A DNA stretch of 32,511 bases from Thermaceae bacterium (GCA_026981865.1 JALSIA010000013.1:1-32511); one strand, 5' to 3'. Numbered from the stretch's first letter, positions 12,806 to 20,040 are shown. Program-made: numbers and translations. Notes: generated from the sequence alone by a model not told the origin.

Positions 12806-15499
12806 TCATTCTTCCCAACGCACCCGGCTGCCCTGGGGAGATTTTTCGACCATCAGCCGCGCCGGCAGGCGCTGCGCCAGCTCGGGAACGTGGGTCACCA
12901 CCCCCACCATCCGCCCCTGGGTGGGCAGCGCCTCCAGCACCTCGGCGGCCAGCTCCAACGCCTCGGCGTCGAGGGTGCCGAAACCCTCGTCGAGGAAGAG
13001 CGCCCCCAAGCGGCCGCGCGAAAGGTGTTCCGAGAGCGAAAGCGCCAGGCTGAGCGAGGCCAGAAAGGTCTCGCCGCCCGAAAGCGTCTTGGCCGGGCGC
13101 AGCGCACCGGTCCAGAGGTCCTCGACGTGGTAGACGCCGTCGGCCAGCCGGAAACGGTAGCGGTGCTGGGAAAGGGTGAAGAGCAGCTCGGAGGCCTGGG
13201 CCAGCATGTCCAGCTGCAAGCGTTCGAGCAGGTAGTCGGGGAACTTATGGCCCTTCAGGTCCTCGGCCAGCTGTTCCCAGACGCCCACCTGCTGCACCAA
13301 CGCGGCGGCCTCCTTTTCGGCCTCGCGCCTCCGCTGCAGGTCGCGCTCGAGCCGTTCGAGACGCTCCTCGGCCGCACCGAGCCGCGACTCCAGCTCCGCC
13401 CTCCGCCGGCCGAGGCCGGTGAGCTGCGCCTTCTTCTGCTCGAGCTCCGCCGCTTCGATCCGGGGCTTGTTCTCGAGCAACCGGCCGACCTCTTCCAGTC
13501 GCTTTTCGACGTAGCCGCGCTCCTCGCGCCAGCGCGCGAGCTGCGCTTCCAGCCGCGCCCGTTCTTCGGGGCTGCGCCGCGCCGGGGCGACCTCGGCGGC
13601 GCTCGCAAACCCCAACTGCTGCAAAAGGGCGGCAACGCTCTCTTCCAAGGGCCCCAGCGCTTCGGCCAGCGCCTGGCGGCGTTCCCGAGCCGCGCGCAAG
13701 GCGGCGGACGCCTCTTCGACCTGCCGTCGCAGCCGCTCGCCCTCGCGGGCCTGCTTTTCCAGGCGGGCCAGACGCTCGCGCAGCGTGCGGGCGTAGGCCC
13801 CCGGCTCCTGGCCGCCGGTCTGGCGGGCCACCTCTTCCGCGAGGCCTCGGCGCATGGCGGCGAGCCTCCGCTCCAGCTCCGCGAGCTCGTCCACCTCCAC
13901 CGGCGCGCCGGCTTCGAGGCGCTTCAGGTCGTCTTCGAGCAACGCCAGCTGCTGGTCCAGCTCGGCGATCTGACGTTCGACGCCCTTGACCTCGCCGCTC
14001 GTTTCCGACCACCGGTCGCGCAGCTCTTGCAGCTCGGCCTGCTTCGCCCGCACCGCCTCCCCCAGCCGGGCGAGCGGGCCCGCTTCGGTAGCCTCGGGGA
14101 GCCTGCCGACCTCTTGCAGGCACAGCGGGCAGGGCTTGCCGGGCTCGAGCAGGTGGCGGTAGGCGGCCACCGAAGCGCGCTTCTGTTCCTCTTCGTAGCG
14201 GGCCCGCAGCCTTTCCACCTCGTCCGCCGCGCGCTTGCCCTCGGCAGTCAGGCTTTCGAGCGCCGCTTTTTTCTGCCGCAGCTCCCCCGCCAGCTCCTCC
14301 CGCCGACGGGCCAGCTCGTCGCGGCGCTTGCGCAGGCGCTCCGCCTCGGCGGCCGCCCGCTGCCGCTCCCGCAAAGCCCGCAAGCGCTCCTCGGCCTCGC
14401 GGTAGACCCGCTCGTCGTAGGCCTCGGCCGGGCCCGGCCCCTCCGCTCCGCCAAGGACCGCCAGCGTGCGGGCCTTGGCCTCGAGCAGCGGCAGCGTCGC
14501 CACCCGGCCGCGCAGCGCTTCCAGTTCGCCTTCGTCGAAGGCTTCGTTATGCTTTTCCCATTTCTTGTTTGCCGCTTCGTACGCGGTTTCCAGCTTTTCA
14601 AGTTCGCGTTCCTGCTTCGCGAGGCGCGCCCGCGCCTCTTCCAGCCGAAGCACCTCGGGCAGCGCCTTCTCGGCCGCGCGGGCGCGCTCGAGCCAGCCCT
14701 CCACCTCGGCCATCCGCCCGGCCTCGGCGGCGAGCGCCTGCCGGCGGGCTTCCAGGCGCGCCTTCTCCTGCCACAGCTCGGCCACCTCGTCCAGCCGCCG
14801 GACCTCTTTTTCCAGGCGTTCGATCTCCCCGCCCAGCCGCTCGCGCTCCTCGCGCAGGCCTCGCAACTCCTCGCGCGCCGCCTCCACCGCCGCCTCGCTG
14901 GCCTCCCGGTAAACTTCGGCGCGCTGCTGCGCCGCCGCCAGACGCTCACGCAGCTCACCCAGCCGCACCACCGCCCGCTCGCGCAGCCCGGCCAGGCCGG
15001 CCAGGCCGTAGAGCGAGAAGAGCAGCTCGCGCCGCTCGCGGCTGTCGCCCTTCAAAAAGGCGTCGAACCGTCCCTGCGGCAGCAGGATCGCGCGGGTGAA
15101 GGCGTCGTAGTCGAGGCCCAACAGCCGCTCGACGGCGGCGTTGAGCGTCTTCACCTTTTCCGAGGCACTCGACAGCTGCCACTCGGCGCCCAGCTGGCGC
15201 TCGAGCCGCGCCTCCGTCTTGCCGGCGATCACCCGCGTCACCCGCCAGACCTCGTCCCCCAGCCGAAAGACCAGCTGCACCCAGGCCTTCTTCGCACCGG
15301 GGTGGAGCAGCGCCTTCAGCCCCTTGCGTCCCATACGCGGGGTCTCGCCGTAAAGAGCGAAGGTCATGGCGTCGAGCAGCGTCGTCTTGCCCGAACCGGT
15401 GGGGCCGGTGATGGCGAAGAGCTCGACGTCGGAAAAGTCGACCGAAGCCTGCCGGGCAAAGGCGCCGAACCCCTCGAGTTCGAGCCTAAGCGGACGCAT
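12806..15499 (-). CDS. sbcC: SbcC/Rad50-type DNA exonuclease ATPase subunit
   Basis: SbcC is the SMC-like ATPase that with SbcD (Mre11) opens hairpins and processes double-strand breaks and protein-blocked ends. The 897-residue protein has Walker A GPTGSGKTT near residue 35, then long coiled coils to about residue 700. The zinc hook CPLC is at residues 457-460, midway. The C-terminal lobe has the ABC signature LSGGETFLASLSLALSLS and Walker B LGALFLDEGFGTLD. I start at the ATG opening MRPLRLELEGFGAF (15499), with a GAGGAGG-like ribosome binding site inside the end of sbcD. The two genes overlap by 14 bases. The far upstream in-frame start would place seven extra residues inside sbcD. Confidence 0.95.
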   Translation of the reverse strand: MRPLRLELEGFGAFARQASVDFSDVELFAITGPTGSGKTTLLDAMTFALYGETPRMGRKGLKALLHPGAKKAWVQLVFRLGDEVWRVTRVIAGKTEARLERQLGAEWQLSSASEKVKTLNAAVERLLGLDYDAFTRAILLPQGRFDAFLKGDSRERRELLFSLYGLAGLAGLRERAVVRLGELRERLAAAQQRAEVYREASEAAVEAAREELRGLREERERLGGEIERLEKEVRRLDEVAELWQEKARLEARRQALAAEAGRMAEVEGWLERARAAEKALPEVLRLEEARARLAKQERELEKLETAYEAANKKWEKHNEAFDEGELEALRGRVATLPLLEAKARTLAVLGGAEGPGPAEAYDERVYREAEERLRALRERQRAAAEAERLRKRRDELARRREELAGELRQKKAALESLTAEGKRAADEVERLRARYEEEQKRASVAAYRHLLEPGKPCPLCLQEVGRLPEATEAGPLARLGEAVRAKQAELQELRDRWSETSGEVKGVERQIAELDQQLALLEDDLKRLEAGAPVEVDELAELERRLAAMRRGLAEEVARQTGGQEPGAYARTLRERLARLEKQAREGERLRRQVEEASAALRAARERRQALAEALGPLEESVAALLQQLGFASAAEVAPARRSPEERARLEAQLARWREERGYVEKRLEEVGRLLENKPRIEAAELEQKKAQLTGLGRRRAELESRLGAAEERLERLERDLQRRREAEKEAAALVQQVGVWEQLAEDLKGHKFPDYLLERLQLDMLAQASELLFTLSQHRYRFRLADGVYHVEDLWTGALRPAKTLSGGETFLASLSLALSLSEHLSRGRLGALFLDEGFGTLDAEALELAAEVLEALPTQGRMVGVVTHVPELAQRLPARLMVEKSPQGSRVRWEE

Positions 15500-16643
15500 G
15501 CCCCTCCTCGTAGAGTTCACGGAAGGCGGCCAGCAAGGCTTCGGCCTGTTCCAGGCCGCGCACCTCGCGCAGGTAGCGCTCGTAGGCCTCGGGCCAGCTC
15601 AACGTCTCCACCTCGGCCGCGGCCTCGACCAGCGGATCGGGGGCCTCGGTCTCGAAGCGGACCTCGAGCAAGTGCGCGTTTTCCTGATAGAGCCGCTCGC
15701 GCAGGGCGCTGTTGGCCGGTCCGGTGAGGATCAGCTTGGCGTAACCGGGCCAGTTTTCCACCTCGGCGAGGCGCCGGTCCAGCCGGTCCGGGTCCAGGCG
15801 AAAGGTGCGCAGCGGCTTGCCCCAGCCGGGGTTGATGGGGTGGACGACGGGCGGCCGGTCGGCCTCGAGCTCCACCACCAGCACACCGCGCTCGGCGTCC
15901 TCGCCCTCGCCGAAGTCGAGCTGCACCAGCGAACCCGAGTACCAGGCCGCCGGCGCGTCCGAAACCTTCTGCTGCCGGTGGATGTGCCCCAGGGCCACGT
16001 AGGTCGCGGTCGTCGGCAGCTTGTCCGGCTCGACCGCGTAGCTGTTGCCTACGTAGAAGCTGAACTCCCCTCCGCCCAGCTTCAGGTTGGCCCCGGCGAG
16101 GGTCAGGTGGGCGACGAGCAGGTTGACCTGTCCGGGCCCAAAATTCGCGGTCAGGTTGGCGATGAGCTTGCCGACGGTTTCCGAGTAGCCGTGCTGCCAG
16201 CTCCCCTCGTCGGCCTCGAGCAGCTGTGCCGCCTTGACGGCGCGGCGTTCGGAAAGGAAGGGCAGGAGCGCCGCTTCGCCCCACTCCCGGTGCACCGCCC
16301 CGCCCTCGCCGCGTACCCGCACCTCGCCGCGGACGTGGGCGCCGGCCAGCTCCAGGAGCGGCGCCAGCGCCTCCAGACGCGGGCGCGAATCGTGGTTGCC
16401 GCTGATCACCAGCGCCGGAACCCCAAGTTCGCGCAGCCCCAAAAAGAACTCGAAGGCCGCCGCTTCGGCCTCGGCGCTCACCCGCGGGCGGTCGAAAAGG
16501 TCGCCGGCAACGACCACCAGGTCGATCTTCTCCTCCCGCACGATGCGCAGGTGATCCCTTAGGGCGCCGGCGATCTCCGGGGTGCGGTCGACCCCCTTGA
16601 GCACCTTGCCCAGGTGCCAGTCGGCGGTGTGGAGGAGCCTCAT
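15486..16643 (-). CDS. sbcD: SbcD/Mre11-type nuclease subunit
   Basis: SbcD is the Mn-dependent phosphoesterase of the SbcCD complex. All family metal motifs are present in order: DWHLG near residue 8, GDLFD near 48, GNHDSR near 82, the His in VAHLTLAG and the GHIH motif in VALGHIHRQQ. The 385-residue length is typical, with a C-terminal capping/SbcC-binding region after about residue 270. The ATG overlaps the vapC stop by 4 bases (ATGA) and its end overlaps sbcC by 14 bases. It is therefore translated from the same message as vapB, vapC and sbcC. Confidence 0.95.
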   Translation of the reverse strand: MRLLHTADWHLGKVLKGVDRTPEIAGALRDHLRIVREEKIDLVVVAGDLFDRPRVSAEAEAAAFEFFLGLRELGVPALVISGNHDSRPRLEALAPLLELAGAHVRGEVRVRGEGGAVHREWGEAALLPFLSERRAVKAAQLLEADEGSWQHGYSETVGKLIANLTANFGPGQVNLLVAHLTLAGANLKLGGGEFSFYVGNSYAVEPDKLPTTATYVALGHIHRQQKVSDAPAAWYSGSLVQLDFGEGEDAERGVLVVELEADRPPVVHPINPGWGKPLRTFRLDPDRLDRRLAEVENWPGYAKLILTGPANSALRERLYQENAHLLEVRFETEAPDPLVEAAAEVETLSWPEAYERYLREVRGLEQAEALLAAFRELYEEGHASA

Positions 16644-17035
16644 CCGACCACCTCGATCGTTCCGTCCTTCGCAAGAACGTAAAAGTGCCGGTCCTGGGTG
16701 AGGACGCGGCCGCCTTGCGCCTCGGCCAACGCCGCAACCCCCGCGTCGGCGACCCCCAGCGGCAGGTCCGCGTAGCGCACGACGAGCTCCGCGGCGCGTT
16801 GCAGGTAGGGCGCGATGGGCATCAGCTTCCAGTATCCAGCGACGGCGTCGGCGAGAAAGGGAACGATCGCATGCGGCCCCACGCGCCGGCTCAGCAGGTA
16901 GTCCAGCTCCGCCAGCACCGGCTCGGGGACCAAAAACGGAGGCCGCTCATCCCGCAAGCGCGCAACCATGGCCTCGTGATGGGGGTCGCTTTCCAGCAAC
17001 AGGGCCACCAGGGCCGAGGTGTCGAGGGTGATCAC
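16640..17035 (-). CDS. vapC: VapC-type PIN-domain toxin RNase
   Basis: The 131-residue PIN-domain protein has the acidic active-site set in the expected places: D5 (TLDTSAL), E43 (VLAELDYLL), D97 (GVADAGVAAL) and D115 (TQDRHF). VapC toxins are Mg-dependent RNases that cut tRNA or rRNA and are held inactive by VapB. It starts with GTG, overlapping the vapB stop by 4 bases (GTGA), and its own stop overlaps the sbcD ATG by 4 bases. That places a toxin gene inside the translational chain leading to the SbcCD nuclease. All catalytic residues are intact, so it is probably active. The RNA target cannot be read from sequence. Confidence 0.9.
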   Translation of the reverse strand: MITLDTSALVALLLESDPHHEAMVARLRDERPPFLVPEPVLAELDYLLSRRVGPHAIVPFLADAVAGYWKLMPIAPYLQRAAELVVRYADLPLGVADAGVAALAEAQGGRVLTQDRHFYVLAKDGTIEVVG

Positions 17036-17283
17036 GGTTCAGAAACCTCGAGGTCGTGCGCCCAGTGCTCACGCAGCCAGCGTTTCACCTCGTCGGAGGG
17101 AAGGCCGAGGTCTTCTTTAACCGAGCCGACGCTGGGGGGTAGCCCGCGGAGTCGCCCCGACGTTTCGACATAGCGCCGCAGCGCCTCGCGGATCAGTTCC
17201 GCCTTGCTCGTTCCCTTCGTGCGCGCCAGCTGCTCGAGCCAAGCGTCCAGCTCGTCGGGAAGGTAGACGGTGGTCTTCTTCAT
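17032..17283 (-). CDS. vapB: VapB-type ribbon-helix-helix antitoxin
   Basis: The 83-residue protein begins with the RHH DNA-binding fold MKKTTVYLPDELDAWLEQLA, followed by the second helix SKAELIREALRRYVE. The C-terminal half (about residues 45-83), with KRWLREHWAHDLEVSEP, would be the toxin-binding tail. RHH antitoxins bind palindromes at their own promoter, and a perfect 14-base palindrome lies 11 bases upstream of the ATG. It is the first gene of the vapB-vapC-sbcD-sbcC run. No good Shine-Dalgarno is visible before the ATG. Confidence 0.88.
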   Translation of the reverse strand: MKKTTVYLPDELDAWLEQLARTKGTSKAELIREALRRYVETSGRLRGLPPSVGSVKEDLGLPSDEVKRWLREHWAHDLEVSEP

Positions 17284-17293
17284 GGTTCTATTT

Positions 17294-17307
17294 TGCCATA
17301 TATGGCA
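17294..17307 (-). promoter_or_regulatory. Probable VapB(C) operator palindrome
   Basis: TGCCATATATGGCA is a perfect 14-base palindrome in the 31-base gap between herA and vapB. Its AT-rich core stands out in GC-rich surroundings and could contain or overlap the vapB -10 element. RHH antitoxins usually autorepress from such a site. Confidence 0.6.
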
Positions 17308-17314
17308 CCCTACA

Positions 17315-19045
17315 TTACAGCCCCAGCTCGTCCTTGAGCGCCTCGTCGGAGACGTCTTCGTTCGCCTCGCTGGCCTTGGTCGCCCAGGCGGGGTAGGGGA
17401 ACTGCACCGCGATGGGCACGGGCACCTCGGGCTGGTGCAGGATCATCGTGCCCTGGGGCAGGATCAGCGCCCGGTCGCGGAAGGCTCCGGGCAGGTAGCG
17501 GTACTCGGGGCGTTCGGCCTCGGCGGCGTCGAGCCGACCCACCACCCGGATGGCGGCGTTGCCCACCACCCGCCGCTCCACCTCGCTGGCCGTCTGCTGG
17601 GCGCCGATGAGGATGACCCCCAGCGAGCGGCCGCGCTCGGCGATGTCCAGCAGGATGTCCTTGATGGGGCTCTCCCCTTCGCGCGGCGCGTACTTGTTGA
17701 GTTCGTCGAGCACCACGAAGACCTTGCCCCGGTGACGCTCCGACTCCTTGGCGGCGAAGACGCGGCGCAAAAGCGCCCCCACCACGAACATCTGGGCCTG
17801 AGGGCTGAGGTTGTGGAGGTCCACGACGTTGACTTGTGCTGGACTTCCCAAGGGATCGGGCACGTTGCCTGGCGCATCTCCGCGAACGAGGTGGCCCACG
17901 TTGCGAACGGCGGCGCGCAGGCGGCGCACGAAGGCCTGGAGGGTGCCGGTGTGCTGGCGGGCGGTCCACTGAGGGTTGCCGCTCGCCGCCTCGCCCTCGC
18001 CTTCGGCGCCCAAGAGCTGGAACTCCAGATAGTCCACCAACCGCCCGAAGCTGTCGATCTTGATCCGGCCAAGCGAGTCGAAAGCACCGGCCTCGGCGGT
18101 CGGCCCTTCGGGCCAGTCGTCCACGTAGAGCTCCGGACCTTGCTGCCCGCGGGCCAGCGCCGCCAGGCGTGCCGTCACGTGGTCGATCAAGAAACCCAGG
18201 TTGCTCATCGACCCGCGGTCGGTGAAGAGGAAGGGCAACAGGGCGTCCTGGCAGAAGTCGACGATGGACCAGTGGTACGGCCTGACCCCTTCGGCGCGGC
18301 TGCTCGCGGCCACCAGGTGGCCCTGCCCCTGGGCCAGCCGCGGCGGGGCGAAGAAGGCGACGCTGGAAAAGGGTTCGGGCTCGAGCCCCAGCCGCCGGTA
18401 GCGCGCGCGTTCCTCGGGGGCGAGCTCGCGGTTGGGCTTGTCCAGGTAGAAGAGGTCCTGCCCCTTGACGTTGAAGATCAGCGTCTTGGCGCTGGCGGCG
18501 TCCTCGAGCACGCCCGAGGTGTAGAGGCTGTGGAGCAGGAAGAGGGCGTAGCTGGTCTTGGCGGCCACGCCCGAGATGCCCGAGATGTTGACGTGGCCGC
18601 CCTGGCGACCGTCGAGGAAGGCGAGGTTGACGTAGGCCGGCTCGCCGCTCTTCATGAAGCCGACCGGCAGCTTCTGCTTCATGCGGTCGTAGTAAAGGGC
18701 ATTCTCCAGCGCTTCCTGCCGCGCCAGATAGACGGGGCTGCCCGGGTCCGGGGGCAGGTACTCCTCGGGCTCGAGCCGGGTCACGGTCACGTGGGCGACG
18801 TAGGCGGTGTTGGTGGGGATCAGGTTGCCCGCGGCCAGAAAGGTGTCGGAGTCGAACTGGGTGCCTTCCAGCACCTTGTGCACCCGGTCGACCATGCCGT
18901 AGTAGCGGACCGCGAGGCTTCCGTGGTCGGCCTCCACCCAAACCACGTCGTCGAGGCGCACCAGCCCATCTTGAATGCCGATCCAGAACTCCAGGGGGCT
19001 CGCCTCGCGGCTGCCGAGGACGACGCCGATCGCTTCTTGCTTCAT
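17315..19045 (-). CDS. herA: HerA-type DNA translocase ATPase
   Basis: HerA is a hexameric FtsK/HerA-superfamily ATPase that works with NurA to resect DNA ends. The 576-residue protein has an N-terminal beta-rich HAS-barrel (about residues 1-95). A P-loop reads GISGVAAKTS (156-165), with Ala rather than Gly before Lys163. Walker B is VFVVLDELNKY at about 442-452, followed by the conserved GAQQTASEVERRVVGNAAIRV region with the sensor/arginine-finger residues. The ATG at 19045 has GGGAGG five bases upstream and overlaps the nurA stop by 4 bases (ATGA). The 31 bases after its stop hold the VapB palindrome, so vapBC may be partly read through from herA. Confidence 0.9.
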   Translation of the reverse strand: MKQEAIGVVLGSREASPLEFWIGIQDGLVRLDDVVWVEADHGSLAVRYYGMVDRVHKVLEGTQFDSDTFLAAGNLIPTNTAYVAHVTVTRLEPEEYLPPDPGSPVYLARQEALENALYYDRMKQKLPVGFMKSGEPAYVNLAFLDGRQGGHVNISGISGVAAKTSYALFLLHSLYTSGVLEDAASAKTLIFNVKGQDLFYLDKPNRELAPEERARYRRLGLEPEPFSSVAFFAPPRLAQGQGHLVAASSRAEGVRPYHWSIVDFCQDALLPFLFTDRGSMSNLGFLIDHVTARLAALARGQQGPELYVDDWPEGPTAEAGAFDSLGRIKIDSFGRLVDYLEFQLLGAEGEGEAASGNPQWTARQHTGTLQAFVRRLRAAVRNVGHLVRGDAPGNVPDPLGSPAQVNVVDLHNLSPQAQMFVVGALLRRVFAAKESERHRGKVFVVLDELNKYAPREGESPIKDILLDIAERGRSLGVILIGAQQTASEVERRVVGNAAIRVVGRLDAAEAERPEYRYLPGAFRDRALILPQGTMILHQPEVPVPIAVQFPYPAWATKASEANEDVSDEALKDELGL

Positions 19046-19986
19046 ACCGCCTCCCGTTGGATGTATTCGAGCAAACGCCGACGGACGAGCGCCGCGCTCC
19101 CCAGCCTGCGCCCCAGCTCGCGCTCGAGCGCCCCCACCGGCACCAGGTTCTGCGGGGCGCGCGGATCGCGGAAGGGCCGCGAGGCCAGGCGCGGAAAAAC
19201 GCCGAGCGCGACCCGGGCAAGCTCCAGGGCTTCGGCCTCGGGCGCGGCGGTCTCGACCCGCAAGAGCGTCGCCGCGGCCGCGTAGGGCCGGTCGGGCTCG
19301 AGCGGCAGGCGCAGGTACCACGAATAGAAACGGTGCTCGCCGCGGGTAAAGGTGAAGACCGGCGTCCGCTCCCCCGCCGCCAGCCGACCCAGCAACGCCG
19401 CACGCTCGGCGTTCAGGTAGCCGCGGTGGTGGGTCTTGGCGAAGCCGAGCCGGCCCGCGGTCTGAGCCGCCGGCAGCCGGTGCAGCGGGCCGTCGTGGAG
19501 GATCAGCGCCCCGGGATGGCGCTCCAGGAGGCCCTCGCCCAGGGCCATCTCCAGCGAGGCCCGGCGCTCCATCGCCGCGGTGCGCAACGACTCGGGCTCG
19601 CCGTCGGCTTCGACGAGTTGATAGTCGAGCCCCGAAGCCGGAGAGAACCGTGGCTCCGGCCAGGCGCCGGGCGGCGCGACCAGGTAGCGGCGCACCGCGA
19701 AGGCCGCCTCGTCGTAGAAGGCGCGCTCGGACTCGAGCCCCACGGCCCCAACGGCTACGCTGACGAGCAGGGCGGGCGCGTCGTCGAGGTAGATCAGAGC
19801 GTCGGTGCGGAACCGGCCGTCCACGAAGAAGAGCGGGCCCGCCCAGTCCGAAACCTCGCGCTTTGGCGCCCAGGGGCCGTCCGCGGCGACGGGCTCGGCC
19901 TGCAGCTCCGGAAGGGGCTGGGCGAGGGACGCCTCCGGCGCGGCGTGCTCCGGGCTCCAGACGTCGAGGCGCAGGCGCGGTTTCAT
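19042..19986 (-). CDS. nurA: NurA-domain 5'-3' nuclease
   Basis: NurA is a metal-dependent nuclease that docks on the HerA hexamer and degrades DNA ends. In this 314-residue protein the first metal-binding aspartate is D56 in LFFVDGRFRTDALI, and a second acidic motif is D165 in LILHDGPLH. Conserved FTRGEHRFYSWYLRLP follows towards the C-terminus. The order matches the PIWI/RNase-H-like NurA fold. The start is uncertain among ATGs at 19986, 19995 and 19998. I give the one opening MKPRLRLDVW; the others add only MMDS or MDS. It is first in the nurA-herA unit, and a palindrome overlaps its promoter. Confidence 0.87.
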   Translation of the reverse strand: MKPRLRLDVWSPEHAAPEASLAQPLPELQAEPVAADGPWAPKREVSDWAGPLFFVDGRFRTDALIYLDDAPALLVSVAVGAVGLESERAFYDEAAFAVRRYLVAPPGAWPEPRFSPASGLDYQLVEADGEPESLRTAAMERRASLEMALGEGLLERHPGALILHDGPLHRLPAAQTAGRLGFAKTHHRGYLNAERAALLGRLAAGERTPVFTFTRGEHRFYSWYLRLPLEPDRPYAAAATLLRVETAAPEAEALELARVALGVFPRLASRPFRDPRAPQNLVPVGALERELGRRLGSAALVRRRLLEYIQREAV

Positions 19987-20010
19987 GGAATCCATCATAC
20001 GTGGCGCGGC

Positions 20011-20040
20011 GTTATGTTTCAAACATAATCGCACCGGCAA
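20011..20040 (-). promoter_or_regulatory. nurA promoter overlapped by a 17-base perfect palindrome
   Basis: On the minus strand TTGCCG (20040-20035) and CATAAC (20016-20011) form a -35/-10 pair with an 18-base spacer. The palindrome TTATGTTTCAAACATAA (20012-20028, 8-base arms around one base) covers the spacer and most of the -10. A repressor bound there would block RNA polymerase. The regulator is unknown. Confidence 0.65.

Follow-up and report, generated by a model that had tools for sequence, protein, structure and literature searches.

In one Thermaceae bacterium (genome G000), a complete and presumably mobile vapBC toxin-antitoxin cassette appears to have inserted at the herA|sbcD joint of the Deinococcus-Thermus DNA end-resection block. 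We give a probability of about 0.6 to the overall reading that this cassette brought its own operator and promoter, replaced the leaderless -10 box of sbcD, and thereby left SbcCD partly dependent on VapB. The locus lies in a stretch of 32,511 nt, referred to here as the window, and comprises six genes in the order nurA-herA-vapB-vapC-sbcD-sbcC, all on the minus strand. This order, the single strand and the gene overlaps had been given in a preliminary description of the window and were borne out by direct reading. Gene content, conservation, the presence or absence of vapBC, operator and promoter signatures and catalytic residues were all read from the sequences themselves.

Gene content of the locus

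The nurA gene (19042-19986, minus strand) encodes a protein of 314 residues, the 5'-3' nuclease of the HerA-NurA complex. Its Pfam NurA match (5.6e-8) is over the cut-off, the NurA of PDB 7f6d is matched at 6.6e-23, and the gene adjoins herA. A promoter-like site detected by consensus scan precedes nurA (19994-20022, minus strand) and consists of TTGAAA, a 17-nt spacer and TATGAT, the latter forming a TANNNT box 7 nt 5' of the nurA ATG. The herA gene (17315-19045, minus strand) shares an ATGA overlap with nurA and encodes a hexameric DNA translocase of 576 residues. No Pfam match was obtained for HerA and its NCBIfam matches were weak; its identity was fixed by the HerA of PDB 7f6d (E 3.4e-165, residues 2-565 covered), which marks it as an orthologue of the characterised HerA. 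This HerA-NurA structure, presumably from Deinococcus radiodurans, is the closest solved relative of both proteins.

A gap of 31 bases (17284-17314) separates herA from vapB (17032-17283, minus strand), which encodes a ribbon-helix-helix antitoxin of 83 residues (Pfam RHH_1, 3.4e-11). It lies directly upstream of vapC with a 4-nt overlap, an organization that fits the VapBC type II arrangement. The vapC gene (16640-17035, minus strand) begins with GTG and encodes a PIN-domain toxin of 131 residues (Pfam PIN, 2.1e-15; VapC26, 1.5e-15), in which alignment revealed a complete acidic quartet (D5, E43, D97 and D115). The sbcD gene (15486-16643, minus strand) overlaps vapC by ATGA and encodes an Mre11-type nuclease of 385 residues (TIGR00619, 3.2e-46, above cut-off), while sbcC (12806-15499, minus strand) encodes a Rad50-type ATPase of 897 residues (TIGR00618, 2.5e-87). 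The SbcC score is below the 478.5-bit cut-off of the full-length TIGR00618 model, and the AAA_23 and SbcC_Walker_B matches are above theirs. The 14-nt overlap between sbcD and sbcC is counted from the ATG of sbcC; an alternative upstream GTG start at 15520 is possible. With the SbcD phosphoesterase adjoining the SbcC ATPase, the SbcCD pair (the bacterial Mre11-Rad50) is present. Matches to defence systems in a PADLOC search reflected weak ATPase similarity and were not accepted.

Conservation of the nurA-herA-sbcD-sbcC block

The four-gene end-resection block nurA-herA-sbcD-sbcC is real and conserved, and the retention of its order across genomes argues against chance. Orthologues of herA were found in 85 of 111 genomes of the order. 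Within the family of the window, both herA and sbcD were found in 10 genomes, and every one of these has the two genes side by side on the same strand; hslU, a TPR gene, nurA, herA, sbcD and sbcC follow one another in order where the contig reaches. A second family of the order (f5) has 15 genomes with both genes found; in 9 of them herA is close to sbcD and on the same strand, with nurA and sbcC flanking the pair where the contig allows. Among the listed genomes of a further family (f4, Thermus and relatives), herA adjoins sbcD in none. One f4 genome (G022, loci L097 and L098) carries hslU-TPR-nurA-herA at one place and sbcD-sbcC-murJ at another, as if an ancestral joined block had been split at the herA|sbcD joint.

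The block itself is not new, as it has already been published for Oceanithermus profundus, in which sbcD and sbcC lie directly downstream of hepA (herA) and were proposed to have been recruited there (Blesa et al. 2017, PMC5448004). The linked block also recurs in f5 genomes, which suggests that the herA-sbcD link is older than a recruitment restricted to Oceanithermus, and the published view that SbcCD joined herA in that genus only is thereby called into question.

Distribution of vapBC at the herA|sbcD joint

The vapBC cassette occupies the herA|sbcD joint in only two of the 10 family genomes, G000 and a distant congener, G004. It is not at the joint in G001, G002, G003, G006, G007, G008, G010 or G012; G005, whose contig ends inside herA, was left out of this comparison. 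The nearest relatives by HerA identity, namely G003 (95%), which we take to be O. profundus, G002 (91%) and G006 (90%), all have an empty joint of 18 bases, a length that includes the stop codon of herA and the two initial codons of sbcD, and a genome-wide search of these three detected no close vapB or vapC homologue. No vapBC was present at the joint among the 9 clustered f5 genomes, and an examination of their herA-sbcD gaps for hidden ORFs gave no convincing gene. In two genomes, G099 and G083, the herA|sbcD joint holds another insertion, an opposite-strand ORF (L085 1966-3372 and L086 8034-9419) that by eye resembles an RsmF-type rRNA methyltransferase.

Both cassettes are preceded by a gap of 31 bases and overlap sbcD by ATGA. 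In the VapC of G004 (L038), alignment places a tyrosine at the fourth conserved aspartate, and because this acidic residue is lost the toxin may be inactive or decaying there. The view that vapBC regularly belongs to the resection unit is not supported, with eight family genomes lacking it at the joint and two carrying it there. The preliminary description had considered that vapBC might occur in this strain only, which agrees with its absence from the nearest relatives and disagrees with its presence at the joint in G004. Judged by this distribution, vapBC is a variable insert and, since it is polymorphic in the genus, would not be a required part of end resection.

A putative operator and promoter upstream of vapB

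The 31-base gap contains a perfect 14-bp palindrome, TGCCATATATGGCA (17294-17307), which is the only match in the window with 0 expected and is a putative VapB operator. The sequence CCATATATGG occurs once in the whole G000 assembly and was not found in G002, G003, G005 or G006. The other CCATATATGG sites in G004 are not located 5' of vapB-like genes and were set aside. Abutting the palindrome is a -10-like box, CAAAAT (17290-17295, minus strand), located 6 nt before the vapB ATG and preceded by TGG, as in an extended -10.

Comparison across the order covered 18 vapB loci, 16 of them elsewhere than this joint and several from closely related Thermus species, hence partly non-independent. The operator motif with at most 2 mismatches is upstream of 14 of the 18 (0.3 expected by shuffling), and a TANNNT box lies 5-7 nt before the vapB ATG at 15 of the 18 (0.75 expected), with the in-frame upstream ATG used as start for the G077 and G079 loci. 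Stand-alone vapBC loci across the order have the same operator and leaderless promoter. Leaderless -10 promoters have experimental support in the phylum (PMC12340547), and in 400 kb of G003 the TANNNT box peaks 6 nt before start codons (4.9%, as against 0.1% at internal codons). These results suggest that the 31-base gap serves the cassette as a switch of its own, combining a putative VapB operator, assigned by its conservation, with a leaderless promoter. The embedded pair reads CAAAAT in G000 and GAAAAT in G004, missing the first T that is kept in most stand-alone copies. This loss may have weakened the cassette promoter, in which case upstream transcription may supply the greater part of the sbcDC mRNA.

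The start region of sbcD

What this locus adds is a promoter arrangement before sbcD that differs between genomes with and without the cassette. In the three empty-site genomes, sbcD is preceded by TAGGAT or TAGAAT exactly 6 nt before its ATG, a box that draws on the stop codon of herA. A similar TACACT stands about 7 nt before sbcD in f5 genomes. No such -10 box was found before sbcD in the genomes that carry vapBC (G000 and G004). Their sbcD has instead a Shine-Dalgarno-like GAGGTGG inside the 3' end of vapC (16648-16654, minus strand, by direct reading; the same in G004), together with the ATGA overlap, and the close coupling of vapC and sbcD noted in the preliminary description is well founded in these two features. 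Not all members of the family have this candidate sbcD promoter, since herA and sbcD of the g3 genomes overlap by ATGA and leave no space for a -10 box.

Proposed effect of the cassette on SbcCD

From these signatures we infer VapB repression, promoter use, translational coupling and an effect on SbcCD. Most likely, VapB binds TGCCATATATGGCA by itself or together with VapC and represses the gap promoter in the manner of usual type II antitoxins, with VapC acting as an RNase that VapB would restrain. The cassette would take the place of the leaderless -10 found before sbcD in empty-site relatives. Because that box is missing from the vapBC-bearing genomes, sbcD and sbcC would depend on readthrough from nurA-herA plus the output of the VapB-controlled promoter, so that the insertion probably shifts sbcDC partly to the latter. 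The Shine-Dalgarno sequence in vapC and the stop-start coupling would direct the start of sbcD translation, and VapC and SbcD would thus be co-translated. A dependence of SbcCD supply on VapB was probably gained as a side effect, and the earlier proposal that VapB also sets SbcCD levels is structurally plausible given the operator, the promoter and the absent sbcD -10.

Two other accounts assign the cassette either no regulatory effect or a dedicated one. Transcription of the whole block could start at the nurA promoter, with vapBC as a hitchhiker whose own promoter is dead. The good promoter-like site before nurA, the T missing from the -10 of both embedded copies and the tight gene overlaps all agree with such neutrality. 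However, the palindrome has remained perfect in both copies despite an identity of only about 54% between the two for VapB and VapC, and most type II toxin-antitoxin modules are autoregulated; on balance we regard a transcriptionally neutral cassette as rather unlikely. The preliminary description took the opposite position, in which vapBC is an adapted regulator of a resection operon, VapB sets SbcCD, and loss of VapB after DNA damage couples growth arrest to end processing. The placement, the ATGA overlap and the Shine-Dalgarno sequence kept in both carriers speak for adaptation, as do a cassette with its own operator-promoter and the lack of a separate sbcD -10 beside it. Nevertheless, neither the closest relatives nor any of the other genera checked have vapBC at the joint, and so patchy a distribution is difficult to reconcile with a needed role in end resection. 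Moreover, the operator also accompanies stand-alone vapBC loci of this type elsewhere in the order, the VapC of G004 is possibly inactive, and no damage-linked motif was present. Nothing was found to connect VapB loss with DNA damage, which leaves the damage-arrest circuit unsupported, and we consider adapted regulation highly improbable. A capture of vapBC as the sbcDC promoter, whereby a toxin-antitoxin repressor would control the Mre11-Rad50 nuclease and the growth arrest caused by free toxin would be linked with SbcCD induction, appears improbable as well, if a little less so. The preferred reading remains a mobile cassette that has partly changed the promoter supply of sbcDC.

History of the insertion

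How the cassette reached the joint is a separate question, and the likelihoods given to its possible histories are not additive with those of the mechanisms above. The VapB and VapC proteins of G000 and G004 are sisters (UFBoot 90 and 94, respectively; 96 in the concatenated tree). The shared gap, the shared overlap and this common branch make one original insertion at the joint likelier than two.

We lean towards an entry of vapBC before the genus split. The cassette would then have been deleted in the line of G002, G003 and G006, leaving a scar of vapB leader and ATG that now serves sbcD, while G000 would have kept it or regained it by recombination. In keeping with this history, the flanking genes place G004 furthest away among the congeners, and it carries the sister cassette. 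The empty-site sbcD also has two extra codons (ATG-GCy-yTG), its third codon standing at the position of the sbcD ATG of other genomes, and the G002 sbcD leader (...GAACC-ATG) matches the vapB leader of G000 (AGAACC-ATG). The scar amounts to only about 6 informative bases, however, and the nesting of G000 beside G003 requires several losses or a regain. Near the joint, any excess of G000-specific substitutions is weak at best on the herA flank and absent from the sbcD flank, and a search for a G000 recombination tract spanning the joint did not demonstrate one. The other history, in which the joint was filled twice independently, either from a single source lineage or through interspecies exchange, would account for a VapB/VapC identity between G000 and G004 of about 54%, far below that of herA (78%) and sbcD (81%). 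It fits poorly with the identical 31-base gap, the identical ATGA overlap and the sister grouping, and we hold it to be possible but doubtful. A search for a vapBC carrier among plasmids and viruses returned one weak plasmid match and no viral relative.

Comparison with known systems

The window resembles several described arrangements without coinciding with any of them. The O. profundus-like G003 has no vapBC, and its sbcD retains its own leaderless -10 box, unlike that of G000. The preliminary description spoke of an archaeal-like resection unit, which holds insofar as all four homologues are clustered in a bacterium. The resemblance probably does not extend to gene order, which in archaea would differ from nurA-herA-sbcD-sbcC; the window is further set apart by a bacterial SbcCD, a Deinococcus-type HerA and the interrupting vapBC. 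Clustering of the same four functions is known from archaeal herA/nurA/mre11/rad50 operons (PMC2288612, PMC4351679), and in D. radiodurans the connection of HerA-NurA with SbcCD has been described as open (PMC4663267).

VapBC type II systems, including VapC26 and the stand-alone vapBC of the Thermus line, have the same ribbon-helix-helix antitoxin, the same PIN toxin with four acidic residues and a palindromic putative operator at the promoter. In contrast to the stand-alone loci, the G000 copy is embedded in a repair operon and its vapC overlaps the start of the next gene. In T. thermophilus, which belongs to the same phylum, an MNT-HEPN toxin-antitoxin-like module lies within the lysine operon of strain HB8 and is absent from HB27 (PMC2701414). 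It is likewise a cassette in a housekeeping operon that a near relative lacks, so the vapBC insert belongs to a known kind of arrangement, although the type of module and the operon differ. The locus offers a compact natural experiment, since thermophiles that are closely related either carry or lack a toxin-antitoxin cassette at one repair-operon joint, and one can ask how a selfish cassette alters the expression of its neighbours and whether toxin-antitoxin autoregulation can be co-opted to control a housekeeping nuclease.

Variation elsewhere in the block

Three further observations concern other parts of the block. In genome G100 the nurA/herA/sbcD/sbcC cluster is present twice (L093 and L094); the two copies have diverged, and one of them has nurA at its far end. 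In G003, murJ (L035 4074-5546) is oriented opposite to sbcC, unlike in the window and in the other relatives. Finally, the coiled coil of sbcC (13170-15110 in the window) is only 55-77% identical between G002 and G000, with both gene ends near 90%, whereas the G003 gene is about 92% identical to that of G000 throughout; the G002 coil looks as if it had been replaced or were evolving very fast.
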